Source of the DNA: Vicinamibacterales bacterium
GTDB taxonomy: Bacteria; Acidobacteriota; Vicinamibacteria; Vicinamibacterales; 2-12-FULL-66-21
Assembly: GCA_035699745.1 (NCBI GenBank)
Contig: DASSPH010000077.1
Coordinates: forward strand, 1-64,000
DNA length: 64,000 bases
Reading direction: 5' to 3'
Made by a program: the position numbers and the translations under genes. The notes beneath the pieces are model-generated. The model had not been told where the DNA came from, did not search any database, and saw only the letters and a program-made list of their open reading frames with translations. Shown here piece by piece: positions 4,736-61,423 of this stretch; the first letter of the stretch is position 1, and each line of letters opens with the position of its first letter.

Positions 4736-4768
4736 CAGACGCTCCGGTTCATCGCTGCGTCCCCGGTC

Positions 4769-35344: not shown

Positions 35345-38300
35345 CGTACGACGAACTCGCCGCGCTGCGCGACGCCGCCCCGCAGGGCGCCGATGCCGAG
35401 GCGCGCTACCGCGCCGCGCTCGCCGCGACGATCGGCGATCTCGATCCGGCTGTCCCGCTGCTGCTGCTGCCGATCCGTCTCGAAACCCGGTTCCGCCCCT
35501 CGCCGCCCGGCCGACCGGTGGAACTCCTGATTCGCGTCTATCCCGACGACGTGCAGATGGACGGGCACGAGGCAGGCCTGACCGCGGACGAGGTGAAGGC
35601 GGGCGAACATTTCTGGCGAACGACCTGGACCGCGACCACGGAGGCGGAGCGCGTCGCCGCGTGGCGGCAACTCGCCGATCGGCTCGGAGACACGCGCGCG
35701 GCGTTCGTGATGAAGGTGCTCACACCGTCGAACGATCCGCAAGCCGGGCAGCCGCCGTCGTTTCCTGTGGTCGCGCCGCGGCCGTCGCGCTGGTCGCGCG
35801 CGGTGCGCGCGCAAGGACTGCCCGATCGCTGGATCGCCACGGCCTATCGGGATGGGCGGAAGATCGGTACGGCCGAAGGGGGTTTGATCGCCAGGCCGCT
35901 CGCGGCCGGACCCTCGCCCGTTGCCGCCGCCGGCACCACCGATCCCGGGATGCTGTGGATGGTGGATTTCGCCGCGGCGCAGACCGCCGGCATGGGCCTC
36001 GTCATGTCGCTCGATCCCGCGCTCGTGGATCGAATCGACCTGCTCCTCGTCGCCGGCGTGCGCGGGTCCGAGACCGCCCTCAGCAGCGCCGCCACATGGA
36101 CCGACCTGCTCGACGCGCACCGGTACACGTGGGGCCTCGATCTGATCGCGGTCGGCACGCCGACGAACAACACCACCGGCGAGCGTTCCGGACAGCCGGC
36201 ACGCACGAGCGTTCCGCAGGCGGTGGCGCCGGCCTCCGAATCCGACGCGGCGATGATCGCGGCGGCGTTCGGGATCACCGGCACGACACGCGGCCCGTTC
36301 GGCACCATCGCGCACGCCGATCTGCGCGATCAAGCCGACGCCGCCGACATGGCGTCGGCGCTCTGGCCCGCGACGTGGGGGTACTTTCTCGCGCAGATGC
36401 TCCGGCCGGAGTTCACGGCGATCGATCTCGACCTCTGGCGGCGGTGGTTCGTCGAGACGGTGCGCGCGCGCGGTCCCCTGCCGGCGTTGCGTGTCGGCGA
36501 TCAGCCGTACGGCGTGCTGCCGGTCACGTCGCTGGAGCGCTGGCAGCCGCATCCGGATCAGCCCGAGCTGCTCGTGCTTCAGGCGGTCGGCGGGGGCCGG
36601 CGGTCGCGCACAGTGCTCAAGGTTCTCTGGGATCTCCAGACTGACGGCGCTTACAGCGACGCGCCGCCGCCGCTGGCGCTGACACTGCCGGCGCTGACAC
36701 TGCCGGCGCGCGCCGTGGCGACGGCGCTGACGCAGATGGACCTCGACGGGGATGGCCAACCGGAGCTGATCGTCGGATGGATCGAGCCGGGAACGAGCCG
36801 CGCGGGCTACTCGGTGCTGCGCTTGGAGGGCGCCGGTACGGCGGTGTCCCGCGCCCGCCATACCGAGCTCACGCTCGATGAAGCGCCCGACCGACTGGCG
36901 CTGGCGGCCGCGACATTGCCGGATCTCGGGCGTGCGCTCGTGCTCGTCACCCAGCAGGCCGGCGGCCGCGGCCGCGGCCTGAGGCTGCGGATCGGCACCG
37001 GCCTGCGGGCGACGGGCGCGGCGCGCCAGTGGTCCGATCCCGTATCGCTCCGAGGGATCGATCGATCGGAACGGCTGCTCGGCATCGCCGTCGAGGATCT
37101 GGACGCTGACGGGCTTCCCGAGCTGGTGCTGCTGACGGATGCCTCGGCGACCGTCCAGTACCGCAGCGGCCGCGGCTCGTTGTCGGACGCAGACATCGAG
37201 CGGTGGTCTGCGCCGGTGGAGGTCACCTCGGGCGGCGTCGCCGCTGACGCGGGCGGGATCGCGTTCGCGGATGTCGACGGCGACGGCACCCGGGAAGTGG
37301 TCGTCCACTACGCGTGGGACGGCGGCGGGGTCGCCGCCGGGGCCTATCGCGTCGGGTCCGGGCTCGATCCGGCCGGCGCGCCGGCGCGATGGGGCTCTCC
37401 GTTCAACGCGGGTGCCGGCGGCGCCGGTCTGCCGCTCGGCGCCGGCATCGTGGTGTCCAGCGTGGGCCGCGGCAACCAGGTCGGGTGGACCACGACCGCG
37501 GGGCGGATCAACCTGCTGCGGCGCCTGGCTGAGGATTGGCGCAGGCTCGCCGACGCCGTTCCGCGAATCGGCAGCGGCGACGTCGATCGGACGCTGCTCG
37601 ATCTGCTCGCGACCGACGGCACGTCCGCGTCAGTCGCGGTGCGCTCGCTGATCGGTCCGGCGCTCGCGGAGAGTCTGTGGTTCGCGCTGGGCGATCCACT
37701 GGCGGCGACGTATCGCGACGACCTGGACGCGCGACTGGCGCAGTGGCTGAATCGCTGGGCCGTCGCCGGCCGCGTGCGCCTGGGCGCCTGCGCGTATGCC
37801 GACCAGGCGCTCGACTTCGAGGCGCCGCTCGTCAGCGCCGGCGCGGAGGACGAGCCCGTCGAGTACCTGGCGAAACTCGCCGCGGCGACGCCGCAGGACC
37901 TGCACGACGGGTGGACGGCGGACGATACGCCGCTCCTGGCGCGGCTCGTTCGGCACAGCCTGTTGCAGGCGTATGCGGATGCGGCGTTCGCCCTCGTTCC
38001 GATCCCGGATCCGCCGCTGCCCGAACCGGAGCTCGTCGATCTCGCGGACATCATGGGTAACGATCCCGTGACCACGCGGACGCTGACCTCGTGGCGGCAT
38101 CTCTCCGAGGCGATGTGGCAGGGACGCCCGGTCGCGCCGGAGCTGTATGCGATGGCGCGCACGGCCGCGCCGCGGTCCGAGGTGGCGCCGCTCGCGGCGA
38201 CGATCGCCGCGGTTGAGCGGCTCGCGCGGCGTCCCGCCGCGACGCTTCAGCGGCTGATGATGGAGGCGCTCGATCTCTCGACCCATCGGCTCGACGCCTG

Positions 38301-45169: not shown

Positions 45170-45246
45170 TGGCGCGCTCCAACACCGGCGGCACGCGCGT
45201 CCCGCCGGTGACGTCGGACGGCGGCACGACGAGCGAAGACCGGTGA
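45169..45246 (+). CDS. Candidate 25-residue bridging ORF with an internal hairpin
   Basis: The ATG overlaps the previous stop (TGATG) and the TGA overlaps the GTG start of C3 (GTGA), so this frame exactly fills the gap. It encodes MARSNTGGTRVPPV and then a Gly/Thr-rich tail. ACCGGCGG (45184-45191) and CCGCCGGT (45202-45209) form a perfect 8-bp hairpin inside it. It may serve as a coupling leader for C3 translation rather than make a functional peptide. Chance cannot be excluded for so short a frame. Confidence 0.35.
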   Translation: MARSNTGGTRVPPVTSDGGTTSEDR

Positions 45247-48200
45247 GCGACTTCCTTTCCCCGTTCGTGACGGCGCTCGCCCAGGCCTTCTCGCCGGTGG
45301 CGAACGGCTTCTCGAGCAAGCAGGAGCTCGAAGCGTTCCTCGCCCGCTACGGGTGGGACGTCGACGTCGACGGGGATCAGCTCGACGCGATCAACGTCGC
45401 GTTCGCCGTGGCGCCGCTGCTCGAGGCGGTGCTCGAGAACCTCGACGAACTGGTCGACGGCAGCGACGAAGCGCGCTTCCGCGCCGCGCTCGACATCCTC
45501 GAGCAGCTCAAGAACCTGATCGAGCACGTCGGCAATCTCGCGCCGGGCGGCGTCGGCGCGCTGTCGCCGCCGTTCGACGACGGCGCGTTCTGGTCCGAGC
45601 TTGGCGACGTCCTGTTCGAAGATCTGCTCGTCGAATACCTCCGGACCAATCAGGGGACGATCTTCGCTCTGCTGCACCTGATCGGGGCGATTCGTTTCGA
45701 GCGGGTGACGCCGGCCGGTCCGCGGCGCATGCCGTTCACGCGGGGACGCCTCGACTGGTCGGAGCTCGGTGCCTTCTTCGCCAGTCCCAACGACGCGTTG
45801 AAGGCGCGGTATTCGTGGGACACGCCGGGCGAGGACTTCGATCACGCCGCGCTGCTGCGGGCGCTCGAGCGCGGCCTGCACGCCCTGGGGGTGCGGGCGT
45901 CGATGCAGCCGCCGCGGCCCGCGCTGGCGGCGGCGCTCCTCCACGATGCGGTCGTCGCCGACGGCGTATCGGAGCTGGAGATGCCGATCGTCGACGGCAT
46001 CGCGGCCGAAGACCAGACGTACTGGAAGATCGGTCTGGTCGCCGTGCCGGTGACCGATCCGGTGAAGGCGAACGTGGCGCCGACGGGCCTGGCCATCGCG
46101 CCAATCCTGCAGGGCGACCTCTCGATCCAGACCTACTTCGGGCGCGACATCTATCTGGAGCTGACCGGTGCGTTCGACGCCGACCGGTCGATCCTGCTGC
46201 GCATCTATCCCAACGACGTGACGCTCGACACCGCGTGGGAGAACGCGACCCTCGAAGCATCGATGGCGCTGGTCGGGGCCCCCGGCGAGCCGTGGCTGCT
46301 GCTCGGCGGGCGCGAGTCGACGCGCTTCGAGCTCGAGGGGTTCCACGCCTCCTACACGATTCGCGGCCGCATCGACGATCTCGAATCGATCGTCAGCATC
46401 GGCACCAGCGCGCCGGGGGCGTCACCGGTGAAGAAGCTCCGGCTGGTGCTGCAACTCGAGGGGGCCGACAGCTTCGTCTCCTCGATCGCCGGCGATCGTG
46501 ATGTGGCGATCGAGGTCGGTGGGACGCTGACCTGGTCGTCGAAGCACGGATTCGCGTTCGAGGGGCAGGCCGGGTTCGAGCTGGCCATTCCGCTGCACCT
46601 CGAGCTGGGCCCGATCGAGATCTCGACGTTGTATCTGGCGCTGGCGGGGCGCACGCGCCACGGCACCGCCGTGCTCGACGGCGACTTCGGCGTCGGCATC
46701 GTCGGCCGCCTCGGGCCGTTGACCGCCGTGATCGAGAACATCGGCGTCCGCGCGTCGGTCGTGCCGCTGCCCGCGGGCGAAGGCGGGGCGGCCGGCACCG
46801 CCGATTTCGATCTGGGCTTCAAGCCGCCGAACGGCGTGGGCCTGTCGCTCGACGCCGGCGTCGTCAAGGGGGGCGGGTATCTCTATCTGGACTTCGACAA
46901 GGGGGAATACGCCGGCGCGCTCGAACTGACCATCGACGATTTCCTGTCGCTCAAGGCGATCGGACTGATCACCACGAAGCTGCCCGGGGGTCAGCCGGGG
47001 TTCTCGCTGCTGATCATCATCACCGCGGAGTTCAGCCCTGGGATTCAGCTCGGGTTCGGCTTCGCGCTGACCGGGGTCGGCGGATTGCTCGGCCTGCATC
47101 GCACGATGCGGCTCGATGCGCTGGTGGCGGGGGTCCGCACCGGCGCCGTGTCGCGCCTCCTCTTTCCCACCAACGTGGTCGAGAACGCGCCGCAGATCAT
47201 CAGCGATCTGAAAGCGATCTTCCCGCCGCAGCAGGGCATCTTCCTGATCGGACCCATGGCGAAGATCAGCTGGGGCACGCCGCCGCTCCTGAACGTCTCG
47301 CTGGGCGTGATCATCCAGATCCCGGGCAACGTCGCCATCGTCGGCAAGCTGCGCGTCGCGCTGCCCACCGACGACGACGAGGCGGTCCTGGTGCTGCAGC
47401 TCGCCTTCGTCGGCGCGCTGGAGTTCGACAAGCGGCGGTTGTGGTTCTTCGCCGGCCTGTTCGAGTCGCGCGTGCTGTTCATCACGCTCGAAGGGGAGAT
47501 GGGGCTGCTGCTGGACTTCAGCGACAACCCGAATTTCGTGATGTCGGTAGGCGGCTTCCACCCGCGCTTCACCGCGCCGCCGCTGCCGTTCCCGTCGCCG
47601 GCGCGGCTGGCGCTGACGCTGGTGAACGAGAGCTACGCACGGGTCCGCGTCGAGCTGTACTTCGCGATCACCTCGAACTCGGTCCAGATGGGGTGCCGCG
47701 CCGAAGCGTTCTTCGGGTTCGATGCCTTCAGCGTGACCGGGCACCTGAGCTTCGACGCGCTGCTGCGCTTCTCGCCGTTCTATCTGATCGTGCAGATTTC
47801 CGCCGGCTTCTCGGTGAAGGTCTTCGGCGTCGGCGTGTGGAGCGTGCGGCTGAAGGGTTCGCTGGAAGGCCCGACCCCGTGGCACATCGACGGCTCCGCG
47901 GAAATCTCGCTGCTGTTCTGGTCGTTCGACGTCGACGTCGAGGTCACCTTCGGGCAGCGCCGCTCGCAGATGCTGCCGCCGATCGCCGTGCTGCCGCGGC
48001 TGCGCGACGAGTTCAACAAGCCTGAAAGCTGGCGCGCGACGCTGCCGGCATCCGGCCGTCTCTTCGTGTCGCTGCGAGAGCTGGACGAGGCGAGCGAGCT
48101 GGTGCTGCATCCGGTCGGGACGCTGCAGATCAGCCAGCGGTTCGCGCCGTTGAACCTCGCGCTCGACAAGGTCGGCAACCAGAAGGTCTCCGATGTCACG

Positions 48201-48743
48201 CGGGTGACGGTCACCGCCGAGACCGCGGAGCTCGAGGTCAAGGGACCCGCGCGCGAGAAGTTCGCGATCGCGCAGTATCGCGAGATGACCGACGCGGCCA
48301 AGCTGTCGGCGCCCGCCTACGAGCCGCTCGACAGCGGCGTGCAGCTCGGTTCGGCAGGGCAGCCATGGGCCACCGGCCGCGTCGCGCAGCGCAACGTCCG
48401 CTACGAGACGATCGTCATCGACACCGCGTTCCAGCGCTTCAGCGCCGGCGTCATCCGCGTACTCGACGTGCTGTTCTCGCACTTCCGCAAGGGCGCCGCG
48501 GTGTCGCGGTCGCCGGTGTCACTGGCGGCCGAGAAGCGCCTCCAGCCGTTCACGGCGCTGATCGCGATCGACGAGGACGCGTTCACCCTCGCGCAGCAGA
48601 TCGACAACACGCCATTCGAAGGGGCGACATTCGGCAGCCACGCCGAGGCGGCGGCGCATCTCGAGGCGCTGGTGCGCGCGAACCCGCTGCTGGCCGACGC
48701 GGTGCACGTCATTCCCGCGGCGGAAGCGCGGAGGGCGGCGTGA
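45243..48743 (+). CDS. Quartet protein C3: DUF6603 (1166 aa)
   Basis: GTG start at 45243 (MSDFLSPFVTALAQAF), as no better in-frame ATG precedes the conserved helical N-terminal domain (ELEAFLARYGWDVD, FWSELGDVLFEDLLVEYL). The DUF6603 strand run follows, with markers VKGGGYLYLDFDKGEYAGAL, GVGGLLGLHRTM, GGFHPRFTAPP, YFAITSNSVQMG and GPTPWHIDGSAEI, and KLSAPAYEPL near the end. Against C2 it has fewer Gly-rich turns and more aromatic strands (LLRFSPFYLIVQISAGF). Its stop overlaps the B3 start by 4 bases (GTGA). No signal peptide; function unknown. Confidence 0.8.
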   Translation: MSDFLSPFVTALAQAFSPVANGFSSKQELEAFLARYGWDVDVDGDQLDAINVAFAVAPLLEAVLENLDELVDGSDEARFRAALDILEQLKNLIEHVGNLAPGGVGALSPPFDDGAFWSELGDVLFEDLLVEYLRTNQGTIFALLHLIGAIRFERVTPAGPRRMPFTRGRLDWSELGAFFASPNDALKARYSWDTPGEDFDHAALLRALERGLHALGVRASMQPPRPALAAALLHDAVVADGVSELEMPIVDGIAAEDQTYWKIGLVAVPVTDPVKANVAPTGLAIAPILQGDLSIQTYFGRDIYLELTGAFDADRSILLRIYPNDVTLDTAWENATLEASMALVGAPGEPWLLLGGRESTRFELEGFHASYTIRGRIDDLESIVSIGTSAPGASPVKKLRLVLQLEGADSFVSSIAGDRDVAIEVGGTLTWSSKHGFAFEGQAGFELAIPLHLELGPIEISTLYLALAGRTRHGTAVLDGDFGVGIVGRLGPLTAVIENIGVRASVVPLPAGEGGAAGTADFDLGFKPPNGVGLSLDAGVVKGGGYLYLDFDKGEYAGALELTIDDFLSLKAIGLITTKLPGGQPGFSLLIIITAEFSPGIQLGFGFALTGVGGLLGLHRTMRLDALVAGVRTGAVSRLLFPTNVVENAPQIISDLKAIFPPQQGIFLIGPMAKISWGTPPLLNVSLGVIIQIPGNVAIVGKLRVALPTDDDEAVLVLQLAFVGALEFDKRRLWFFAGLFESRVLFITLEGEMGLLLDFSDNPNFVMSVGGFHPRFTAPPLPFPSPARLALTLVNESYARVRVELYFAITSNSVQMGCRAEAFFGFDAFSVTGHLSFDALLRFSPFYLIVQISAGFSVKVFGVGVWSVRLKGSLEGPTPWHIDGSAEISLLFWSFDVDVEVTFGQRRSQMLPPIAVLPRLRDEFNKPESWRATLPASGRLFVSLRELDEASELVLHPVGTLQISQRFAPLNLALDKVGNQKVSDVTRVTVTAETAELEVKGPAREKFAIAQYREMTDAAKLSAPAYEPLDSGVQLGSAGQPWATGRVAQRNVRYETIVIDTAFQRFSAGVIRVLDVLFSHFRKGAAVSRSPVSLAAEKRLQPFTALIAIDEDAFTLAQQIDNTPFEGATFGSHAEAAAHLEALVRANPLLADAVHVIPAAEARRAA

Positions 48744-51700
48744 GCGTACGGCCGATCGCCGCGTACTCGTTCCTGCCCTGGGCGCGCGAGGGGCTGGGGA
48801 CCTTCATCCGGCAGCCGGATTTCGATCCCGCGGTGCTGGTGCGCGGCTCGATCGACGTCGAGCTGCGCCTGAGCGGCGATCGGGTCGGCGGCGGCACGTT
48901 CAGTGAACCGCTGCCGCCGCGCGTGGTGCAGCTCTATGGCCCCGGCGACATCATCGGCATCGAGGCCCGGGCGATCGTCCGCAGCGAGCCGCGCAACTGG
49001 ATCACCAACTTCGAATCGAACTACATGCCCTTCGTCGAGTTCTACGACGAAGACTTTCCCTGGCGCTATACGCCGGCGGCGGCGTCGGCGGACGGGAAGC
49101 GGCTGCGTCCGTGGGTGACGGTGATCGTGCTCGAGGAGAGCGAAATCCCGGCGCAGGGCGCCAGCGGCCGCGATCGGCCGTTGCCGTTCGTGCAGATCGC
49201 GGATCCGGGACGCGCGTTTCCCGCCGCCGACCAGTTGTGGGCCTGGGCGCACGTCCACGTCAACGGCAGCTTCACCGCCGATCCCGCCGATGCCGCCGCG
49301 GTCGCCGCGGAGCTGGCCGACACGATTCGCGCCGATCGCGATCTGGCGTATTCGCGCGTGCTGTGCCCGCGGATCCTCAAGCCGGACACCGCGTATCACG
49401 CGTTCCTGGTGCCCACGTTCGAGACCGGACGGCTGGCCGGCCTCGGCCGAGATCCGGCCCTCGCTCCGTTCGCGACCGAGAGCGCGTGGTCGATCTATCC
49501 GGGCCGCGAGGACGTCGATCTCTTTCCGTATTACCACCGCTGGTACTTCCGCACCGGCACCGTCGGGGACTTCGAGTACCTGGTGCGGCTGCTGCAGCCG
49601 CGGACGGTGGACCCGCGGGTCGGGCGCCGCGACATGGACGTGCAGGCGCCGGGCGCGAATCTCCCGGGCATCCCGGAGCTCGGCGGCATCCTGCGCCTGG
49701 GCGGCGCGCTGCGCGCGCCGCTGATCACCTTGAGCGTGCAGGCGAGGGAGGAGTACGACCGCTTCGAACAGTGGGGCAGTCCTTATCCGCATCGCTTTCA
49801 GACGGCGCTCGCCTCGCTCGTCAACCTCGCGAACGACTACGGGGGGACCGATCCGGCGACGGCAAACACCGCGAGCGGGCTGGAGGAGATCGAGGATGAC
49901 GAAGATCCCGTGATCGTCCCTCCGCTCTATGGCCGCTGGCACGCGCAGACGCAACGTCTGGTCGACAGCGACGGCGACCCGGCGCGCCAGCGGTGGGTGC
50001 ACGAGCTCGGGCTCGATCCGCGGTTCCGCGTCGCGGCGGGATTCGGCACCCGTGTCGTGCAGACGAACCAGGAGCAGTACATGGAAGCCTCCTGGCGGCA
50101 GGTGGGAAAAGTCCTGGAGGCGAACCAGAAGATTCGCTTCGGCCAGATGGCGAAGATCACCACGCTGGTGTGGCACGCGCGCGAGCTGGAACCGTTGCGG
50201 CGTCAGTCGGCGGCGCGCTATCTGTCGCTCATCGCGCCGGTGCAGCGCCGCGTCGTGGTCGGCGGCGTCACCGTGCATCATCAGATCCGCCAGAGCACGC
50301 TGCCGGCGGCCGCGCTGTCGAAACCGTTCCGGCAGGCCCGCCGTCCGCGGGCGCGGCTGGAACGCCTCGCCGGCTACGATGCCGCGCACCCGCGCGAGGC
50401 GCTGCTGCCGCGCATGGCGCTGCCCGACGGCGACGACGGCAAGGTGTCCGCCGCGCCGCCCAAGACGGTTTCTCCGCAGTTGCCGACCGGCCGGCAGTTC
50501 GCGGATCGGTTCGTCCCGCGCGGCTTCCTGGCGCCGCTGCTCCGGGCGCTGATCGATCGTCCCGCGCTCCGCACGTGGCTGGTCGTCGCCGCGTCGATCC
50601 TGCTGCTGCTCGTGTTCGCGATTGCCCCGGCGTCCGCAATCGTCCTCGCCGTCCTCATCGGCGCCGCGGCCGCGTGGATCGTCCGCGCGCTCCCGAGAGC
50701 GGCGGCCGCGACCGCGCTCGATCCCGACACCCGCACTCCGGAAAGCGTGGACCGGATGCCGGCGAGCCCGAATTTTCGCATCGGTCCGGCGCAGCCCGGT
50801 GCGGCGCCGCAGATCGGAGGAACCGTCGACAGTGCGGAGGCGCGGCGGTTCAAGTTCGCGCTGCGGAACGCCTACACGGTGGACGTGGCCGAGCGGGCGA
50901 TTCCGCGCGTCGAGCGCCAGCCGATCGAAGTCGGGGCCATCGCCGAAGCCACGGTGCAGCCGCTGCACCCGGCGCGCACCGTGCCGGCGCGCGTCCTCGG
51001 ATCGGTACGGATCCCCGCGCGCATCGCGGAGAAGCTGCCGCCGACGTTCGACGAGATCATGGTCTATCCGGAGATCGATCAGCCCATGTACGAGCCGCTC
51101 AAGGAGATTTCGAGCGAGCTGTTCCTTCCGAACCTGCAATTGATCGAGAACAACAGCATCACGCTGCTCGAGACGAATCAGAAGTTCATCGAGTCCTATA
51201 TGGTCGGCCTCAACCACGAGTTCGCGCGCGAGTTGCTCTGGCGCGAATACCCGACCGATCAGCGTGGCAGCTATTTCCGGCAGTTCTGGGACGTGAGCGA
51301 CTTTCTCGCCGAGGCGGGCGCCGACCTGCAGGCCCTGCGCGAGCGGCTGCGCGACATCCCGGAGCTCCATCGCTGGCCCACGGATACGGAGCTCGGCGCG
51401 CACGACCACCGCGAGCAGCAGGGTGACAAGGAGGACGAGGTGGTGCTCGTCATCCGCGGCGAGCTGCTCAAGAAGTATCCGACCGCGGTGATCTACGCGC
51501 ACCGCGCCGAGTGGCAGCGCACGGCCGGCGCCGTCGACAAGTCGAAGCCGCGCCGGCCGGTCACCCTGACCGACGCCCAGGCGCTCGATCCACCGAAGGA
51601 TCTGGTGAAGACGCCCCTCTACGAAGCCAAGGTCGACCCGGATCTCTATCTGTTCGGTTTCGATCTGACCGCGGAACGCGCCCGCGGCGGGCAGAGCGTG

Positions 51701-52057
51701 GATGGCGAAGAAGATCCCGGATGGTTCTTCGTCGTCGAGGAACGCCCGGGCGAGCCGCGGTTCGGCCTCGACCTTCCCCGCACCGGGCCGCCGCCGCTGG
51801 CGCTCCACACCTGGAACGATCTGTCGTGGACCGACGTGCTGAACGCCTACACGCCGGGCGACTTCCTGCGCATCGGCGAGACGTCCCGGATGCTGACCGA
51901 CCCGGGAAGCGGCAGCGACGACAAGGTGCAATACGACGACGATCGGAACTATCTGTGGCGCGCCGATACCGACGCGGCGGAACTCGCCTACATCCTCTAT
52001 CAGGTCCCGGTGCGCATCGCCGTGCACGCCGCCGAAATGCTCAAACAAGCGGTCTGA
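48740..52057 (+). CDS. Quartet protein B3 with inserted transmembrane hairpin (1105 aa)
   Basis: The GTG at 48740 (VSVRPIAAYSFLPWARE) overlaps the C3 stop. B motifs are VQLYGPGDIIGIEARAIVR, FPWRYTPAAAS, WAWAHVHV, LCPRILKPDTAYHAFLVPTFETG, YYHRWYFRTGTVGDFEYL, PPLYGRWHA, GLDPRFRVAAGFGTRVVQ, NHEFARELLWREYPTDQRG and a final ILYQVPVRIAVHA block. At about residues 610-655 there are two adjacent hydrophobic stretches (WLVVAASILLLLVFAI and SAIVLAVLIGAAAAWIV) flanked by Arg. They read as a membrane hairpin and are absent from B1 and B2. If real, this quartet is tethered to the membrane through B3. Confidence 0.8.
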   Translation: MSVRPIAAYSFLPWAREGLGTFIRQPDFDPAVLVRGSIDVELRLSGDRVGGGTFSEPLPPRVVQLYGPGDIIGIEARAIVRSEPRNWITNFESNYMPFVEFYDEDFPWRYTPAAASADGKRLRPWVTVIVLEESEIPAQGASGRDRPLPFVQIADPGRAFPAADQLWAWAHVHVNGSFTADPADAAAVAAELADTIRADRDLAYSRVLCPRILKPDTAYHAFLVPTFETGRLAGLGRDPALAPFATESAWSIYPGREDVDLFPYYHRWYFRTGTVGDFEYLVRLLQPRTVDPRVGRRDMDVQAPGANLPGIPELGGILRLGGALRAPLITLSVQAREEYDRFEQWGSPYPHRFQTALASLVNLANDYGGTDPATANTASGLEEIEDDEDPVIVPPLYGRWHAQTQRLVDSDGDPARQRWVHELGLDPRFRVAAGFGTRVVQTNQEQYMEASWRQVGKVLEANQKIRFGQMAKITTLVWHARELEPLRRQSAARYLSLIAPVQRRVVVGGVTVHHQIRQSTLPAAALSKPFRQARRPRARLERLAGYDAAHPREALLPRMALPDGDDGKVSAAPPKTVSPQLPTGRQFADRFVPRGFLAPLLRALIDRPALRTWLVVAASILLLLVFAIAPASAIVLAVLIGAAAAWIVRALPRAAAATALDPDTRTPESVDRMPASPNFRIGPAQPGAAPQIGGTVDSAEARRFKFALRNAYTVDVAERAIPRVERQPIEVGAIAEATVQPLHPARTVPARVLGSVRIPARIAEKLPPTFDEIMVYPEIDQPMYEPLKEISSELFLPNLQLIENNSITLLETNQKFIESYMVGLNHEFARELLWREYPTDQRGSYFRQFWDVSDFLAEAGADLQALRERLRDIPELHRWPTDTELGAHDHREQQGDKEDEVVLVIRGELLKKYPTAVIYAHRAEWQRTAGAVDKSKPRRPVTLTDAQALDPPKDLVKTPLYEAKVDPDLYLFGFDLTAERARGGQSVDGEEDPGWFFVVEERPGEPRFGLDLPRTGPPPLALHTWNDLSWTDVLNAYTPGDFLRIGETSRMLTDPGSGSDDKVQYDDDRNYLWRADTDAAELAYILYQVPVRIAVHAAEMLKQAV

Positions 52058-52066
52058 TGAATCCCC

Positions 52067-55000
52067 ATGGCTGACGTCGACGTCCTTCGCGCACAACTCG
52101 CCCGCATCCGCGCGTCGCTCGAGCGGACGCGGTCGGAAGCGGTCCTGGCCCATGAAACGGTGCGCCGGACCGAGCGGGATCTCGCCGAACTGGGACGGCG
52201 CAGCCGCGAGTCGACCGAACGCGATCGCGAGCGGCTGCGGCGGCAGCTGGCGATCGCGGAGGACCGGAAGCACGGCGTCGATGCCGAGCTCGACCGGCTG
52301 CGGGCCGAGGAAGCCAGGCTGCGCGACGACTTCGATCGCTTCAGCGATCCGACGACGCAGCTCGAAACGCTGGGCGATCGATCGCCGATCCTGCTGCTGC
52401 CGCTGCGGCTGGAGACGCGGTTCAGGACGGGACCCCAGGGTGGGCCGCAGCTGTGGGTGCGCGTCTATCCCGACAGCTGTCTCGTCGACACCTTCGAGCC
52501 GTCGCTCGCCGAGCGTGAAGTGGAGAACGCGCGCGCGTTCTGGGCACGGTTCTGGCGCGCCGCCGGCGACGAGCCCCTCGAGCGCGCCGCCTGGCGCGAG
52601 CTGGTCGCGGCGCATGGATCGGGACGGTCGCGGTGGATCCTCCGCAACTACATGCCGCTCAACCCGGACGACAAGCCCGGCGATCCGGACGCGGCCGACG
52701 TGTTCCTGATCGTTACCGCACCGGCAGCGCTGACCGGCGCGGTGCCCGCCTATTGGGAGGCCGCATGGCGGGCCGGCGGCGACGCGGAGGCGGTGCGGGA
52801 GGCCTTCGACGATCTCGTCGCGGCCGTCGGCGAACCGGATGCGCGCACGATTCTCGAACGCCATCGGCCCTACAACTTCGACGACCTGCCGCCGGCCGGC
52901 ACGACGCGCGAGACGGCGCGGGTCGTCGTGGCGGTGCTCGAGCTGCCGCCGATCGAGTCGCTCGAGACCCGGCGCACGTCCTGGTCACAGCCCTCGCGGA
53001 TCGAGCTGTTGCCGGACCGCTTCGTCGTCGTCGCCTACCCGTTTGCCGGAGCGCCCATCACGATGGCCGGCGGTCGGGTTCGCGTTCCGCTGTCGGCGAG
53101 CCCCGATCCGAATGCGCCGCCGGCGCAGGCGCTCAGGCAGGTCGACGACACGCTGCAGATTCCGCCGGACCTCGCCTGGATGTTCGACTTCGAGGCGGCG
53201 GAGGCCGTCGGGATGGCGATTCGGGTCGACATTTCGGCGGCGCAGGCGCGCGAAGGCTTCGCGCGCGTCATCGTGCTCGGGGTGAGGCTGGCGGACGATG
53301 CGGAGCACGGCGCCACTCGGCTCGCCGGGCTCCTCGAACACCATCTGCACAGCCGTGCCGGCCTGGAGATCCTGCCGCAGGGCACACCCACGAACAACAC
53401 CGAGAGCGCTGCCTCGGGGTATTCGTTCCGCGACGATCCCGACGCCAGTTTTGCCGCGTTCGTCCGCAACCAGCCGCTGTACGACGTCGAGCCGGACGTT
53501 CGCCTGCGCCGCGACGGCCAGTGGCTGGCCGACCTGCTCGCGCTGCCGCACGCGCTCGTGCAGCAGGTCCCTCACGCCGATGGTTTCGATCGGCGCGATG
53601 CGATGGCGATGCAGACGGCGCTGTGGCCGGCGACGCTCGGCTACATGATGAAGAGCGAACTCACGTCCGTGTTCTCGGCCGACACCGTGGAATGGACGCG
53701 CGCGTTCTTCAGCCGATACGTGGCGGGGCGGGGTCCGCTGCCCGCGCTGCGCATCGGCCGTCAGCCCTACGGCATTCTGCCGACCGCCGCGTTCGGCCGC
53801 ATGACCTTCCTCCCCGTACGGCCGCCGTCGCGTGCCGGCCGGTTGCACGCGATGCTGATGAAGATCGACGAGCACTGGCAGCCGCTCGCGGACGCGCTGA
53901 GCTACATCGGAAAACCCGGCAGCGATCCGCATCAGGTGCTGCTCGACGTGCTCGGCCTGCACCCCGCGTCGGTCGAGTATCACCCGCTCCAGGCGGAGAG
54001 CGTCGACCACAAGTTCCACGAGTTGAGCTTCTTCAGCTTCCCGACGTCGCTCGATCTTCTCTCCGCCTTCCCGGCGATCCTGCCGCTGATGCTGCTGCGC
54101 GAGTTCGGCTACACCGGCGCCGAGGTCCCCGACCTTCTGAACAAGGTGTTCAAGGCGCGTCAGACCCCGCTGACGGGGCCGGTGATCGACGACCGGCCGC
54201 TCTCGGAACGGGAGCCGATTCGCGATTATGCGGGTGACCGGAACTACATCGAATGGCTCGCCGCGGCCGCGCGGACCGGCATCACGGCGCTGCAGGAGGA
54301 GCAGGGGTTCGACGGCGGCCGTCCGCCGGCCGCCCTGCTCTATCTGCTGCTGCGCCATGCGCTGCAGCTCGGCTTCCATGAAACCAGCATCAAGCTGCAC
54401 GTCGACGCCCGGTTGATCGAGGACGCGCAGGCCGCGCGGCGCGAACCGGCGTTCGTGCACGTCGGCGACCGGCGCCGTGGCAGCGAGAGCCGCTACGATC
54501 TGCTGTTCAAGACGCAGGAAAGCATCACCGGGTCGAACGCGGAGCGCATCGGGGACTTCATCGCGCGGACGATCATCACGGTGGATCCGGGGCTGAAGGA
54601 TCAGGTCGATGCGCTGGATCAACTGGCGCCGCTGTCGACGGCGAAGCTCGAGCGCCTCTTCGCCGAGCACGTCGACTGTTGCAGCCATCGGCTCGACGCG
54701 TGGAAGACCGGGCTGCTGGCGGCCCAGCTGGACACGCTGCGCCGGCCCGGCGACGGAGCCGCGTCCGGACGCGGACTGTACCTCGGCGCGTACGGATGGT
54801 TGGAATCGCTGCGACCGTCGGGGCGCGTGCTGATGCCCGCGCAATTGCCGCGGGACGTGGAGGAGCCCGTCAACCGCCGTGCCGCGGCGCCGTTGATGCG
54901 CGACCCGGCGAACGCCGGCCTGATCCATGCCATGTCGATCAATCACGCCGCCACCGCCGCGGTCCTCCGCAACGGCTACCTGGCCAATGACGGCCGGCTC

Positions 55001-57526
55001 GCGGTGAATCTGACTTCGCGGCGCGTGCGTCTGGCGCTCGACATTCTCGAGGGCATGCGCAACGGGCAGTCGCTCGGCGCGCTGCTCGGGTACAAATTCG
55101 AGCGGCACATCCACGACAACGGGCCGATCGGCGTCCGCGCGCTCATCTATCCGCTCCGGCGGGCATTTCCCCTGGCGGCCAACCGGATCGAGACGACGAG
55201 CGGCGAGCCCGGCACCGCCCAGGAATCGATCAGCGCGGTCAACGTCGTCGACGGACGGCGGCTGATCGAATATGCCGAAGGGCTCGAACCGCCGAACTTC
55301 ATCTATCCCTTCGACCTCTCGACGCTGCCGCCGCGGCCGGCGGCCGAGGAGCAGGCGATCACCGATGCGCTGGCCCACATCCGCGACATCAACGACGCGG
55401 TGGCGGATCTCATCCTCGCCGAAGGCGTGCACCAGGCCGTGCTCGGCAATTACGAGCGGTCGTCGGGCACGCTCGACGCCTTCGCGAAGGGCAACTACCC
55501 GCCGGAGCCGGACGTCATCCGAACGCCGCGAACCGGGATCGCGCTCACGCTGCGCGCGGCGATCCACTTCTCCGATGATCCCCCCGGCGATCCGCTGCCG
55601 GGCCTCGATCCCACGCCGCTCGCGATTGCGGAGCCGGCCGTCAACGTCTGGCTGCGCGACCGCCTGCCGCTGCCCGTCGACGTCGGCTGCCCGGTGGTGT
55701 TCACGGATCGCGCGACGAACGCCGAGCAGCAGGTCTTCATCGATCAGGCGCAGCTCGGCTTGCACCCGATCGACCTTCTGTATCGCGTCCGGGCGGACGG
55801 CGATCAAGCGCTCGGCGAAATCGATGCGCTGATCCTGCTTCGGGTGCACACCGCGCACGCGCCGCGCCACGATCGGCCGATCGTGATTCACCACACGGCG
55901 CGGGTGGCGGGGAAGGTCAGCTGGTTCGCGCTGCAGGCGCTGCTTCGCAGCCTCCGATCGCTCCTCGCGTCGCGTCCGCTGCAGCCGGCTGACCTGGTGC
56001 GGGCGAACGACGCGACGATGGAGCAGCAGGCCACGGTGTCGCTCCCGGCGGCACGCGTGGTCACGGCCCGGGACCGTCTGCGCGACGAGCTGCTGCCGGC
56101 GCTCGACGCCCTGGCGGCGACAGTGGCCGATGGCACGGTGCCGATCGATGAGGCGCTCGACGAGTTCGCGGCGACGGTCGCCGAGTTCGCCGCGTACCGG
56201 ATGCCGCAGACCGGCGTCGGGTTCGTCTACGAGTGGCGCCACGCCGCGTACTCGGCGCTCGTCCAGAGGATCCGGCAGCACGTCGAGAACTGGGATCGGC
56301 GCCTCTCGCGGTTCGACGCGCGGCTGGACGAGTACGACAATCTGCCGGCCGCGACACCGGATGACGAGCGCTTCGCGCGGCTGGGCAGCGCGGAAGCGAT
56401 CGTCAGCACGGTGGTGACCCGCCCGCTGCCCGCCGATCCCGACGATTATCGCGGCACCGTGCTCGTGGCGCGCCGGGCCGCGTTCGTCGCCAAACGGAAT
56501 GAACTGGCTGCGCTCGCCGCCGCCGCGCCGGCGACGCTCGCGGGACTCGTCGACGGCGTGCGGGCCGCCCTGCCGCTCACCGCGTTCGACGTCACCGACT
56601 TCGAGGTGTCCGCCGACGTGGAGGGAATCGAACGGTTCCGCGCGCAGCTCGCCGGTGCCGTGACGTCCCTGAGGCAGGAGGTGACCGGCCGCCTTGCGCG
56701 CGTCGACGATCGTCTCGCCGCCGCCGGGCCGACGGCGAGCGGCGCCGCGGCCGTGAGCCTGCTGCAGGAAGCCGGCAAGATCCTGTTCGGCGACGACTTT
56801 CAGTACGTGCCGCATCTGAGGCTGCCGGCGAAGGCGGTCGAGGAGCTTGCCCACGCGTGGAATTCCGCCGTGTCCGGAGCGTCGACGGCGCATCTCACCG
56901 GTGCCCACGAGTTTCCGCTGGACGACTGGCTGCACGGCGTCGCGCGAGTCCGCGGCAAGCTGCGCGACTGGGAGAACGTCGTCCTCCTGACCGATCCCGA
57001 GGGGACAGCCGGAACGTCGGATCTGACGCCGCTGCAGATTCCGTCCGTCGAAGGTGAGCCATGGCTGGGCCTCGAGATCCCCGCCGGCCACGAGATCACG
57101 AGCGATCGGCTGCTCTATACCGCGCATTTCGCCGTGCCGTTCGACGAGGCGCGGCCGATCTGCGGCCTGCTGATTGACGAGTGGACCGAGGTCGTTCCGG
57201 ACGTGCGTGAAACGACCGGGCTCGCGTTCCAGTACGATCGCCCGAACAGCGAGGCTCCTCAGAGCTGGCTCCTCGCCGTGCCCGCGTCGGTCGGCGACGA
57301 CTCGCGGTGGTCGTGGGGGGAGCTGCTCGCTGCGGTCGTGGACGCGCTCGATTCGGCGCGGAAACGCGCCATCGAACCGGTTCACGTCGCGACGACCCCT
57401 TACAGCTGGTTCCTTCCGGCGACGATGGCGCCGTATACGTTCCCCGAGATCTCGGTCTCGAACAATCTGCTGCGCAATCTGTCCATCTACGCCGGCATCG
57501 CGAGGTCCGCCGATGGCCCAGCCTGA
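52067..57526 (+). CDS. Quartet protein A3, giant, with coiled-coil start (1819 aa)
   Basis: ATG at 52067 (MADVDVLRAQLARIRASLE) follows the B3 stop by 9 bases. Residues 1 to about 95 are a charged heptad-like coiled coil (RDLAELGRRSRES, LAIAEDRKHGVDAELDRL). Then comes SPILLLPLRLETRF, followed by GTPTNNT, ALWPATLGYM, RGPLPALRIGRQPYGILP, CCSHRLDAW, LGALLGYKFER, VIRTPRTGI and DEWTEVVP. The C-terminal third contains another helical stretch (RIRQHVENWDRRLSRFDARLDEYD). No enzyme motif and no signal peptide. It is the longest A protein. Its end overlaps the D3 start by 14 bases. Confidence 0.8.
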   Translation: MADVDVLRAQLARIRASLERTRSEAVLAHETVRRTERDLAELGRRSRESTERDRERLRRQLAIAEDRKHGVDAELDRLRAEEARLRDDFDRFSDPTTQLETLGDRSPILLLPLRLETRFRTGPQGGPQLWVRVYPDSCLVDTFEPSLAEREVENARAFWARFWRAAGDEPLERAAWRELVAAHGSGRSRWILRNYMPLNPDDKPGDPDAADVFLIVTAPAALTGAVPAYWEAAWRAGGDAEAVREAFDDLVAAVGEPDARTILERHRPYNFDDLPPAGTTRETARVVVAVLELPPIESLETRRTSWSQPSRIELLPDRFVVVAYPFAGAPITMAGGRVRVPLSASPDPNAPPAQALRQVDDTLQIPPDLAWMFDFEAAEAVGMAIRVDISAAQAREGFARVIVLGVRLADDAEHGATRLAGLLEHHLHSRAGLEILPQGTPTNNTESAASGYSFRDDPDASFAAFVRNQPLYDVEPDVRLRRDGQWLADLLALPHALVQQVPHADGFDRRDAMAMQTALWPATLGYMMKSELTSVFSADTVEWTRAFFSRYVAGRGPLPALRIGRQPYGILPTAAFGRMTFLPVRPPSRAGRLHAMLMKIDEHWQPLADALSYIGKPGSDPHQVLLDVLGLHPASVEYHPLQAESVDHKFHELSFFSFPTSLDLLSAFPAILPLMLLREFGYTGAEVPDLLNKVFKARQTPLTGPVIDDRPLSEREPIRDYAGDRNYIEWLAAAARTGITALQEEQGFDGGRPPAALLYLLLRHALQLGFHETSIKLHVDARLIEDAQAARREPAFVHVGDRRRGSESRYDLLFKTQESITGSNAERIGDFIARTIITVDPGLKDQVDALDQLAPLSTAKLERLFAEHVDCCSHRLDAWKTGLLAAQLDTLRRPGDGAASGRGLYLGAYGWLESLRPSGRVLMPAQLPRDVEEPVNRRAAAPLMRDPANAGLIHAMSINHAATAAVLRNGYLANDGRLAVNLTSRRVRLALDILEGMRNGQSLGALLGYKFERHIHDNGPIGVRALIYPLRRAFPLAANRIETTSGEPGTAQESISAVNVVDGRRLIEYAEGLEPPNFIYPFDLSTLPPRPAAEEQAITDALAHIRDINDAVADLILAEGVHQAVLGNYERSSGTLDAFAKGNYPPEPDVIRTPRTGIALTLRAAIHFSDDPPGDPLPGLDPTPLAIAEPAVNVWLRDRLPLPVDVGCPVVFTDRATNAEQQVFIDQAQLGLHPIDLLYRVRADGDQALGEIDALILLRVHTAHAPRHDRPIVIHHTARVAGKVSWFALQALLRSLRSLLASRPLQPADLVRANDATMEQQATVSLPAARVVTARDRLRDELLPALDALAATVADGTVPIDEALDEFAATVAEFAAYRMPQTGVGFVYEWRHAAYSALVQRIRQHVENWDRRLSRFDARLDEYDNLPAATPDDERFARLGSAEAIVSTVVTRPLPADPDDYRGTVLVARRAAFVAKRNELAALAAAAPATLAGLVDGVRAALPLTAFDVTDFEVSADVEGIERFRAQLAGAVTSLRQEVTGRLARVDDRLAAAGPTASGAAAVSLLQEAGKILFGDDFQYVPHLRLPAKAVEELAHAWNSAVSGASTAHLTGAHEFPLDDWLHGVARVRGKLRDWENVVLLTDPEGTAGTSDLTPLQIPSVEGEPWLGLEIPAGHEITSDRLLYTAHFAVPFDEARPICGLLIDEWTEVVPDVRETTGLAFQYDRPNSEAPQSWLLAVPASVGDDSRWSWGELLAAVVDALDSARKRAIEPVHVATTPYSWFLPATMAPYTFPEISVSNNLLRNLSIYAGIARSADGPA

Positions 57527-59438
57527 GATCGTCTCCAACATCGGCCACGCGCTCGACGCGCGGCTGTATCCGGCGGTGACGCGCTGGAACCGTCTCGAGG
57601 GTCGTCCGCGCACCCACGATTTCGATCGCGCGCTGAAGGCCGAAGTGCGCGACGCCTTGTGGATGCTGTCCAGACAATGGCAGATGGGGGAATTCCTGGG
57701 CGAGGATGCCGGGTCGCCGGTGACCGCGCGCCTGTGCTTCGACACCGCGGCGATCGATCGCTTTCAGGCCGCCGGCGCCGCGCCGGAACCGCTCGATCTC
57801 GCCCAGCCGCTCGAAACCCGCGTCGAACGCCGCGCCCTCCCGCTGCATGCCGGCGCGCAGTATCTCTCCCTCGATCTGCGCATCGCGGTGGGCCGGCGCT
57901 GGCTCAAGCGCCTCGCGCGCGAGTTCAGCGCCGGTGGGCTCACGGTCGATTACCGGGGCGCCTATCGCACCGAGTACGCCGTCGCCGTGCCCGATCCGTC
58001 CGCCGCGGCCGATGCGCTGGTCTGCGCTCATCCCGACGCGTGGCAGACGGCCGGCCTGGCCGCGGAGCGCGCCATCGACGGCATCGCGCTCCTGGAGCAC
58101 GCGGCGCAGCCCGGGCAGAGCGTGATCGATAACATTGGCGCCGCCGCGGCCGACGAGCCACGGCTGATCGCGATGGGCGGCGAGCTGGCGCGCTGGTTCA
58201 CGTCGCTGATCGCGCAGCCGCCGCCGGGCGCGCCGGACGCCTGGATTCCGTCGCGCCTGGAATACCAGTTCGGCTGCGAGGCGCCGCTCGGTGAGAGCGG
58301 AGCGATGCGCGCGGAGGAGTATTACCAGGGGACGCTCGATTGGTATGCGCTCGAGCGCGCCCGGGCCGAGCCTCGCGCCGGTGCGGTGCGCGACATCAGG
58401 ACGTTCATCCCGGCCTCAATCAGGTTCGAGGGGATGCCCGACACGCGCTGGTGGGCGTTCGAGGATCAGCGCGTGAACTTCGGCGAGGTCCGGCCGGATA
58501 CCACCGACCTGGGCAAGCTCCTGCTCATGGAGTTCGCGCTGATGTATGCGAACGACTGGTTCGTGTTTCCGTGGACGCTCGACATCGGCACCGTCACCGA
58601 GGTGAAGGGGCTCGCGCTCACCAACACCTTCGGCGAGCGCTTCTGGATCGAGCCCGTGCGCGAAGCGCCGGCGGCGGAGTGGCAGCGGTGGGCTGCGTTC
58701 ACGCTCGGATCCGCCGCGCCCGAGAACCCGCCGCCGCCGTCGCGACTCGTGCTGGTGCCGACGGCGCCGAAAGTGCAGGAAAGCGATCCGCTCGAGGAGG
58801 TGGCGTTCATCCGCGACGAGGTGGCGAACATGGTGTGGGCGATCGAGCGGAGGATCGTGCTGCCCTCGGGGGGAACCAAGCCCGGCGCGGAGGCGGCGGA
58901 GGAACTGTTCGCGTTCCTGCAGCGACCGCTCGCCGACGAACTGCGCCGGCTGCAGGATCGCCGGGTGGAGCTGGAGGCCGTGCCGGCGGCCGACCGCACG
59001 CCGGCGGAGGTCGCCGAGCTGGCCGCAGCCATCCTTCGCCTCGCGGAGCTGCGTCCGCCGCCGCCGGCGGCGCCGATCCGCTACCAGGCGATGACCCGCG
59101 TTCCCGAGCACTGGATTCCGTTCATCCCGGTGCACGTGGAGGGCAGCGCGCGCGAGACGCAGCTGCAGCGTGCGGCCATGCCGCGTATCCTCGCCGGCGA
59201 TCCCGATCGGCCGCAGAAGATCCGTCCGCGGACGTCGCTGCTCCGTCACGGATTGCCGCGCGCGTACTTCATTCACGAGGAGGAGGTGCCGCGCGCCGGC
59301 ACCGTGGTGACGCAGTCGTACCAGCGTACGCGGTGGATCGGCGGGCAGGCGATCACCTGGTTCGGCGTCCGCAAGCAGACCGGCCGCGGCGAGGGCTGGA
59401 GCGGCCTCGCCTTTGATCAGATCCTGCCGATCGACTAG
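57513..59438 (+). CDS. Quartet protein D3 with helical insert (641 aa)
   Basis: ATG at 57513 (MAQPEIVSNIGHALDARLYP) lies inside the end of A3 (14-base overlap), so it is probably translationally coupled. Motifs are LWMLSRQWQMGEFLGEDAG (about 49-67), FEGMPDTRWWAFEDQRVNFGEV, LLLMEFALMYANDWF, EEVAFIRDEVANMVWAIER, VPEHWIPFIP and GRGEGWSGLAFD at the end. Between WAIERR and VPEHW there is a 70-residue helical insert (EELFAFLQRPLADELRRLQDRR, then PAEVAELAAAILRLAEL) that D1 and D2 lack. It closes quartet 3; a hairpin follows 12 bases after its stop. Function unknown. Confidence 0.8.
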   Translation: MAQPEIVSNIGHALDARLYPAVTRWNRLEGRPRTHDFDRALKAEVRDALWMLSRQWQMGEFLGEDAGSPVTARLCFDTAAIDRFQAAGAAPEPLDLAQPLETRVERRALPLHAGAQYLSLDLRIAVGRRWLKRLAREFSAGGLTVDYRGAYRTEYAVAVPDPSAAADALVCAHPDAWQTAGLAAERAIDGIALLEHAAQPGQSVIDNIGAAAADEPRLIAMGGELARWFTSLIAQPPPGAPDAWIPSRLEYQFGCEAPLGESGAMRAEEYYQGTLDWYALERARAEPRAGAVRDIRTFIPASIRFEGMPDTRWWAFEDQRVNFGEVRPDTTDLGKLLLMEFALMYANDWFVFPWTLDIGTVTEVKGLALTNTFGERFWIEPVREAPAAEWQRWAAFTLGSAAPENPPPPSRLVLVPTAPKVQESDPLEEVAFIRDEVANMVWAIERRIVLPSGGTKPGAEAAEELFAFLQRPLADELRRLQDRRVELEAVPAADRTPAEVAELAAAILRLAELRPPPPAAPIRYQAMTRVPEHWIPFIPVHVEGSARETQLQRAAMPRILAGDPDRPQKIRPRTSLLRHGLPRAYFIHEEEVPRAGTVVTQSYQRTRWIGGQAITWFGVRKQTGRGEGWSGLAFDQILPID

Positions 59439-59479: not shown

Positions 59480-59560
59480 CCTGTCGGGGAAATCCTTGAC
59501 GCGGGCGCGACGCGGATGTGGTCAGCCCAACTCCGTACTGACAGATGCCGCCACAGCTAG
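59459..59560 (+). promoter_or_regulatory. Decayed copy of the quartet-2 promoter and leader
   Basis: GGGTATGC (59459) lies 37 bases before TTGACG (59496-59501), against 38 in the promoter at 27353-27419. ATGTGGTCAGC then aligns with ATATGGTCAGC, and ACAGATGCCGCCAC aligns with ACAGACGCCGCCAC of the PLD leader. A 3-base deletion shortens the -35/-10 spacing, and the aligned start codon is replaced. No plus-strand gene follows; the next gene is on the minus strand. It appears to be a leftover of a further module. Confidence 0.5.
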
Positions 59561-60423
59561 ACGTTCGTCGTCGTCACACCCAGCGGCTGCGCGTCCGCGC
59601 GCCGCGGCGCGGCGGCGGCGCCCGGATCGTCCAGGCGCGCGAAGTAGTCGCGCACCTCGCGCCACGAGCGCACGCGCGGGTAGCGCGTCTCCCCGGCGTT
59701 GTGCGGCGCCGAGAAGAGCAGCGGCGCCCCCTTGAACCGCGCGAAGTGCCGCGGCCGATCGTCGATCAGGTAGTCTGCCTCGACGATCCCCTTGTCGCCG
59801 CAGAACACGATGTGGGTCGCGGGAATGAAGGGGAAGTGCCGCTGCAGCCACTGGAACTTGGCGTCGAACGAGCACGGCACGTCCATCGCGGCGGTCACGA
59901 CGATGACGTCGTGGCGCTCCGCGAGATCGCGCACGACCTCGGCGCACTCCGGCATGACCGGGAGATCGGCGAAGAACGACGCGTCGTACATCGCTTCCAC
60001 CGCTTCGCGCTGCGCCGCCGGCACCCATTCCTCGAGATGCCAGCCGTGCAGATCCGCGGCGGTGACGCGGCCGCCGAACGCCGAGTTGTAGCGCCGCAGC
60101 AGTTCGTCGAGCGCGTCGGCCATCACTTCGTCCATGTCGATGGCAATCCGCAGGCGGCGGCGCCGCCCGCCGCGGATCGCCACCTCGCGTCTGATCGCGA
60201 CCGCGGCGACCAGCACGAACGACACCGCGTTCGCCGCGATCAGCGGCAGCGACCCGATCAGCAACCCGTGCGTCAGCCACAAGGCCTGGCCGGCGAGGTA
60301 GAGCGCGAGCATCCAGGGGGACAGCTCGGTCGTCCCGTGGCCGCGGATCGACAGCAACTGCGGAACGAAGGCCAGCGTGGTGGCGAGCGCGGCGGCAATC
60401 CCGACGATGGTTCCGGGCGACAT
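59557..60423 (-). CDS. SemiSWEET membrane domain fused to a 5'(3')-deoxyribonucleotidase-like domain (288 aa)
   Basis: Residues 1-80 form three transmembrane helices with the PQ motif of SemiSWEET/MtN3 sugar transporters (LAFVPQLLSI, PQ at 21-22; LAGQALWLTHGLLIG; PLIAANAVSFVLVAAV). After an Arg-rich linker (GGRRRRLR) the HAD-type domain starts with IAIDMDEVMADALDELLRRYN (nucleophile D96 and D98), as in 5'(3')-deoxyribonucleotidases. VVTAAMDVP and the late DYLIDDRPRHF supply the other HAD motifs. The reading frame is continuous with no stop between domains. ATG at 60423 is chosen; a GTG at 60441 is possible. It is divergent from a LysR gene. Confidence 0.8.
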   Translation of the reverse strand: MSPGTIVGIAAALATTLAFVPQLLSIRGHGTTELSPWMLALYLAGQALWLTHGLLIGSLPLIAANAVSFVLVAAVAIRREVAIRGGRRRRLRIAIDMDEVMADALDELLRRYNSAFGGRVTAADLHGWHLEEWVPAAQREAVEAMYDASFFADLPVMPECAEVVRDLAERHDVIVVTAAMDVPCSFDAKFQWLQRHFPFIPATHIVFCGDKGIVEADYLIDDRPRHFARFKGAPLLFSAPHNAGETRYPRVRSWREVRDYFARLDDPGAAAAPRRADAQPLGVTTTNV

Positions 60424-60480
60424 GCCACCAGCATGAGGCACGCGCCCGATTGCGTCCAGTGAAACGTGCGGCGCGATCTG

Positions 60481-60495
60481 ATAACTTCCGGTTAT
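60481..60495 (+). promoter_or_regulatory. Candidate LysR box overlapping the regulator's start codon
   Basis: ATAAC-TTCCG-GTTAT is a perfect inverted repeat and contains the T-N11-A pattern of LysR-type binding sites. Its last two bases are the first two of the LysR gene's ATG (60494). Binding here could block LysR expression and, from the divergent side, act on the SemiSWEET-nucleotidase gene about 60 bases away. Confidence 0.45.
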
Positions 60496-61423
60496 GGATG
60501 TCGATCTCGACGACTACGCCGCGATCGTCGCGCTCGCCGACGCGCTGCACTTCGGGCGCGCGGCGGAGCGGCTCCACGTCTCGCAGCCGGCGCTGAGCAA
60601 GCGCATCCGCAAGGTCGAGGCGCATGTCGGCGGTCCGCTGCTGCTGCGGCGCTATCGCGACGTCCGCCTCACCGAAGCGGGACGGCTGCTCGCCGAGCGC
60701 GGCCGCCAGCTGCTGCGCGAATCGGCGGCCACCCTCGCGTTCTCGCAGCGCGCCGCCCGCGGCGAAACCGGCCGCCTGCGCATCGGCTTCGGCATCGCCA
60801 GCATCATCGGCCTGCTGCCGGACGTCCTGCTCCAGTTCCGCCGCGGCCATCCCGACGTCCAGCTCGAACTGCGCGACATGTCGACCCCCGAGCAGGTGGC
60901 GGCGCTGGCCGCGGGGGAGATCGACGTGGGCTTCGTGCGTCTGCCCGTCACCGCCGAACGGCTCGTCGTCCGCCCGGTCCTCGACGAACGGCTGGTCGCC
61001 GCCCTCGGCCCGCGGACGCGGTGGCAGCCGCGCGCCGGACTGCGCTCGGTCGCCGCGGAGCCGTTCATCATCATCACCCGCACGCGCTCGGCGAGCTTCT
61101 ACGATCACGCGCTGAGCGTGTGCGCCGCCGCCGGCTTCACCCCGCGCATCGTCCAGGAGGCGAACGAGCTGTTCACCGTGCTGTCGCTCGTCGGCGCCGG
61201 CCTCGGCGTCTCGCTGGTGCCGCGCTCGGCGGCGCTGATGCAGTTGCCGGGAATCAGGTTTCGCGAGCTGACGCTCCCGGAAGCGGCCTGGAACATCGGC
61301 GTGGCGTGGCATCGCGACGCGGGCACGGGCCCGCTGGTGCAGCACTTCGTCGAGACGGTACGGAGGACGCAGTCGGCGCCGCGGGTCAGCGGACGCCGGA
61401 CGCGCTCGGCGGCGGCACGGTGA
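60494..61423 (+). CDS. LysR-type transcriptional regulator (309 aa)
   Basis: The N-terminal winged helix-turn-helix is typical ([37 protein letters not shown]). The effector domain starts near residue 93 ([17 protein letters not shown]), with [11 protein letters not shown] and [13 protein letters not shown]. Closest in style to the regulators of aromatic or organic-acid degradation genes, but the ligand cannot be read. The divergent fusion gene is the obvious target. Its 3' end overlaps the convergent DUF4115 gene by 38 bases. Confidence 0.9.

Follow-up and report, generated by a model that had tools for sequence, protein, structure and literature searches.

Within the stretch of Vicinamibacterales DNA analysed here (64,000 nucleotides, hereafter the window), one reading frame raises the question of whether a sugar transporter and a nucleotidase have been joined into a single protein, and what such a protein would do. 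A preliminary description had read the frame as a SemiSWEET continuing into a nucleotidase. This reading was borne out: its coordinates (59557-60423) match the open reading frame that we found exactly, the frame runs without a stop, and both domain names are right. The analysis confirmed that a three-helix SemiSWEET-like domain and a complete NT5C-type HAD phosphatase lie in one protein and that the fusion is real.

59557..60423, minus strand: fusion gene, 288 amino acids, ATG start at 60423, stop at 59557, frame unbroken, orthologues known.
60151..60171, minus strand: short basic linker, residues 85-91, predicted to be cytoplasmic from sequence and hydropathy.

About 15 Arg-rich residues separate the regions matched to SemiSWEET (6-77) and NT5C (93-261), and third-position GC is 0.95, 0.90 and 0.92 in transporter, linker and enzyme, respectively. 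A search of 193 genomes of the class for the same architecture, as had been suggested, returned the full, stop-free fusion in four genomes besides that of the window: G061 (65% identity), G010 and G011 (60%) and G015 (53%). The five fusion genomes are spread across three families. The preliminary description had also raised a frame error and the prospect that relatives might carry two separate genes only; neither was found. That adjacent genes were fused by a sequencing or assembly mistake, which the draft state of the genome (110 contigs) might favour, is so improbable that we reject it for the family, because the four orthologues carry the same uninterrupted junction, and the coding signature stays even across the linker.

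The N-terminal half comprises the following features:

60193..60408, minus strand: SemiSWEET-like domain, residues 6-77, from profile matches and matches to solved SemiSWEETs.
60337..60417, minus strand: transmembrane (TM) helix 1, residues 3-29, with Thr15 and Pro21-Gln22 (PQ motif), from the model helix, hydropathy and alignment.
60256..60318, minus strand: TM helix 2, residues 36-56, with Trp49 (equivalent to Trp48 of LbSemiSWEET), from the model, hydropathy and alignment.
60172..60249, minus strand: TM helix 3, residues 59-84, with Asn65 (equivalent to Asn64 of LbSemiSWEET), from the model, hydropathy and alignment.

Judged by its sequence, this half is a divergent SemiSWEET, because a clear match falls short of the curated naming cutoffs. 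The NCBIfam profile NF037968 matched with an E-value of 5e-17 and 61.7 bits, below a cutoff of 80 bits that is a naming threshold and no functional feature, and the Pfam PQ-loop profile reached 20.4 bits (cutoff 22). The domain alone matched the solved SemiSWEETs 9kax (E 3e-12) and 4qnc (LbSemiSWEET; E 2e-9). Hydropathy gave three peaks which, together with the model helices (3-29, 36-56 and 59-84), describe a three-TM unit. Among the Foldseek matches listed, which the enzyme half dominates, there was no SemiSWEET, so the assignment rests on sequence and residues rather than on fold.

In LbSemiSWEET, the transport residues are Thr13, the PQ motif, Trp48 and Asn64 (PMC5972207). An alignment of the five intact fusions, whose LbSemiSWEET row is consistent with the PDB alignment of 4qnc over residues 4-74, showed that Pro21-Gln22, Trp49 and Asn65 are invariant and that position 15 is always Ser or Thr. 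At the position of the gating Tyr51 of LbSemiSWEET, the window protein has His52, whereas the other four fusions keep Tyr. The transporter half thus shares with LbSemiSWEET and 9kax a significant sequence match, three helices, PQ in TM1, Trp in TM2, Asn in TM3 and a Ser/Thr in the TM1 pocket. However, known SemiSWEETs are single or duplicated into SWEETs (PMC5742349, PMC5972207), whereas this one carries a C-terminal soluble enzyme. An inositol-phosphate phosphatase gene is reported to cluster with a SemiSWEET gene (PMC5972207).

The C-terminal half comprises the enzyme and its motifs:

59641..60147, minus strand: NT5C-type HAD phosphatase domain, residues 93-261, from Pfam, PDB and structure matches.
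60130..60138, minus strand: HAD motif I, Asp96-Met-Asp98 (nucleophile and acid/base), with Asp96 and Asp98 invariant in 26 sequences.
59893..59895, minus strand: HAD motif II, Thr177, Thr or Ser in all five fused forms.
59857..59859, minus strand: HAD motif III, Lys189, invariant in 26 sequences.
59758..59763, minus strand: HAD motif IV, Asp221-Asp222, invariant in 26 sequences.

Known NT5C members are soluble, single-domain enzymes. The Pfam NT5C profile (PF06941) matched with an E-value of 1e-38 and 133 bits against a cutoff of 24.8, covering profile positions 4-174 of 180, and Staphylococcus epidermidis 3bwv aligned across the whole phosphatase domain (E 1.7e-46). Like PF06941 members, 3bwv and human mdN (1mh9), the fused enzyme has a complete HAD domain with all four motifs (DxD, Thr/Ser, Lys and Asp-Asp); unlike in human mdN, the base-pocket residues of that enzyme are not conserved. 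The AlphaFold model (mean pLDDT 86; about 60-90 in the helices and above 90 for most of the enzyme) shows a HAD fold preceded by three long helices. Foldseek matched it to 3bwv with a TM-score of 0.97 of the target at about 42% identity, covering nearly all of 3bwv. The TM1-TM2 loop and the segment that follows TM3 carry basic residues, which are nearly absent from the TM2-TM3 loop; by the positive-inside rule, this distribution predicts that the phosphatase lies on the cytoplasmic side.

Next to the fusion gene, across a gap of 70 bases in the window, lies a divergent regulator gene:

60494..61423, plus strand: divergent LysR-type regulator gene (Pfam HTH_1 and LysR_substrate), a conserved neighbour of the fusion.
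60479..60495, plus strand: palindrome TGATAAC-TTCCG-GTTAT of the LysR T-N11-A type, a putative operator, from a motif search.
60454..60464, plus strand: second conserved intergenic element, GTCCARTGAAA (GTCCAGTGAAA in the window), from comparison of the loci.

The conserved LysR partner and the operator-like palindrome are new here and were absent from the preliminary description. The divergent LysR gene adjoins the fusion, or its remnant in G002, at all five loci with a readable flank (in G011 the contig ends), with identities of 78% in G061, 72% in G010, about 75% in G002 and 53% in G015. Both GTCCARTGAAA and TGATAA-N5-GGTTATGGA are kept in the gap at the same five loci. Allowing at most one mismatch, the window form TGATAAC-N5-GTTAT has a single occurrence in the 6.3 Mb genome. 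This is suggestive of a private regulatory unit in which the LysR protein serves only the fusion gene; we infer that it would regulate the gene through the putative operator. Close LysR orthologues (E <= 1e-70) were present in six genomes of the class, five of which hold the fusion or its remnant. In the sixth, G060 (L120, G060:C307, 1-2421), the LysR protein is 83% identical; the genome search gave no fusion match there, and no palindrome was seen at the LysR start. Upstream of this LysR gene, on the same strand, lies a dihydrodipicolinate-reductase-like (dapB-like) gene, named by eye from its sequence.

In a quick tree with provisional support, the fused phosphatase parts and the G002 enzyme formed one clade (SH-aLRT 95, one state change) nested within standalone Acidobacteriota enzymes. 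A phylum-wide sample from outside the class gave matches to single domains only, and where both occurred in one genome they lay far apart (e.g. G238, G388). Taken together, the one clade and the single-domain matches make the fusion look like a single event within this class. A SemiSWEET and an NT5C gene 3-4 kb apart in the Acidobacteria MAGs L039 and L040, a near-identical pair, were counted as one coincidence. The full-length fusion was not found in sampled genomes from the phyla of a Paenibacillus (348 genomes), a Mucilaginibacter (296) or an Erwinia (388, with no positive control above the cutoff); these searches used a strict cutoff and scored the best candidates per genome, so rare cases could escape. 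Nor was it found in plasmid records or viral contigs. Mucilaginibacter sp. L3T2-6 (L059, 3974-5144) carries tandem NT5C genes at 3974-4546 and 4599-5144. The open literature searched, outside which lay most subscription papers and the domain-architecture databases, held no published description of a SemiSWEET paired with a nucleotidase. We conclude that the fusion is real, conserved and rarely seen, with parts from known families and a new pairing.

We propose that phosphatase and transporter work together in one bifunctional membrane protein, with LysR-switched release of a dephosphorylated product, a reading that has a good chance of being right while falling somewhat short of probable. Topology, dimerisation, coupling, direction and regulation are all part of the proposal. 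The three helices would place the N-terminus outside and the C-terminus inside, and would dimerise into a SemiSWEET-type facilitator with one cytoplasmic NT5C-type HAD phosphatase per subunit. The phosphatase would take the phosphate off a cytosolic metabolite (a nucleoside monophosphate or a sugar phosphate), and the uncharged product, freed next to the transporter mouth, would exit the cell down its gradient. The divergent LysR-type regulator would sense a ligand and switch the fusion gene via its private operator. An outward direction is plausible, given a predicted cytoplasmic enzyme and a facilitator that depends on a gradient. The more specific picture, in which the phosphatase sits at the inner mouth of a SemiSWEET dimer and channels fresh nucleoside or sugar out under its own LysR switch, is offered tentatively.

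The preliminary description had suggested export or uptake coupled to dephosphorylation. The predicted cytoplasmic enzyme and the conserved transport pocket fit such coupling, but with the phosphatase predicted on the cytoplasmic side, release is the more likely of the two directions. The proposed release is the mirror image of systems that trap cargo via phosphorylation on entry. PnuC transporters carry nicotinamide riboside, a nucleoside-like cargo that is trapped inside by phosphorylation; here, the logic would be reversed to dephosphorylation and release. PnuC vitamin transporters have been proposed as full-length SWEET relatives (PMC7162841).

If the coupling is real, the protein would be a simple case of product channelling from an enzyme to a facilitator and could reveal nucleoside export as a SWEET-type role. 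Few SemiSWEETs have a known natural cargo, and a built-on enzyme with a dedicated regulator and one operator-like site would help to find it here, giving three independent handles: enzyme substrate, regulator ligand and product transport.

As cargo, the preliminary description had named (deoxy)ribose or nucleosides, which amounts to a guess, since the sequence of a SemiSWEET does not reveal what it carries and the human mdN base pocket is not conserved in the clade. Phe49, Trp76 and Trp96 of human mdN, which we take to be its base-pocket residues, align to Ala104, Trp128 and Tyr146, and the position of Trp128 is Trp only in the window protein. A nucleoside cargo is possible by analogy, because the cavity of a plant SWEET, AtSWEET13, was crystallised with 2'-deoxycytidine-5'-monophosphate (PMC8961523). 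Family names also point to deoxynucleotides as the substrate.

Alternatively, the proposed release may take a form with a different cargo, in which the enzyme acts on a sugar phosphate or removes a side product, rather than dephosphorylating a nucleotide, and free sugar leaves through the SemiSWEET. Glucose or sucrose is the cargo of the characterised SemiSWEETs (PMC5972207), and promiscuity is common among microbial 5'-nucleotidases (PMC8475336), both of which, like the altered base pocket, would suit a sugar phosphate. Against this, Pfam describes a pyrimidine deoxynucleotidase family, and the closest solved relative, 3bwv, is annotated as a putative deoxyribonucleotidase, although its substrate is known by annotation only. 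On balance, we consider the sugar-phosphate version credible but unlikely. As clues to the substrate, the surroundings of standalone NT5C genes showed no conserved neighbourhood beyond lineage-specific synteny, and no pathway genes flank the fusion-LysR unit. A function in anti-phage defence was dropped, PADLOC models giving no match for the fusion or the LysR protein.

A different possibility is that the SemiSWEET-derived helices have no transport role and merely tie a cytosolic phosphatase of the ordinary kind to the inner membrane, perhaps also dimerising it. Between the window protein and its three closer intact orthologues, identity is 36-56% in the SemiSWEET half and 72-74% in the enzyme half. 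In nearly all comparisons dN was below dS, with dS poorly determined at such distance. Both halves look to be under constraint, the transporter half more loosely, because it diverges faster. The best evidence for an anchor comes from G002 (L004 / L086, G002:C345, about 7200-8870), where the enzyme is intact and only the third helix is present; the first two helices were sought in any frame and not found. If real, this one-helix form means that the enzyme can persist on a single helix, and transport may be dispensable. However, the LysR gene of G002 is split across two frames, so this locus is either decaying or wrongly assembled. Standalone NT5C relatives, whose genes lie beside neither a SemiSWEET nor any conserved partner, would also suit a phosphatase that needs no transporter.

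The faster divergence, the G002 form and His52 in place of the gating Tyr51 likewise count against phosphatase-coupled release. On the other side, the HAD catalytic residues are invariant, and the SemiSWEET gate and pocket residues (PQ, Trp, Asn and Ser/Thr), needless for a mere anchor, are kept in all five intact fusions across the three families. We therefore regard a pure membrane tether as rather improbable and continue to favour coupled release.

On the far side of the fusion gene, a run of very large frames on the plus strand (45243-59438) looks like one large operon that ends convergent with it. The run begins with a DUF6603 protein (45243-48743, 428 bits), followed by frames of 1230, 1819 and 630 amino acids; none of these three gave a Pfam match, and the last two were also without a PHROG match. 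Upstream of the DUF6603 gene lies a 1922-amino-acid frame with FG-GAP repeats (34900-40668).
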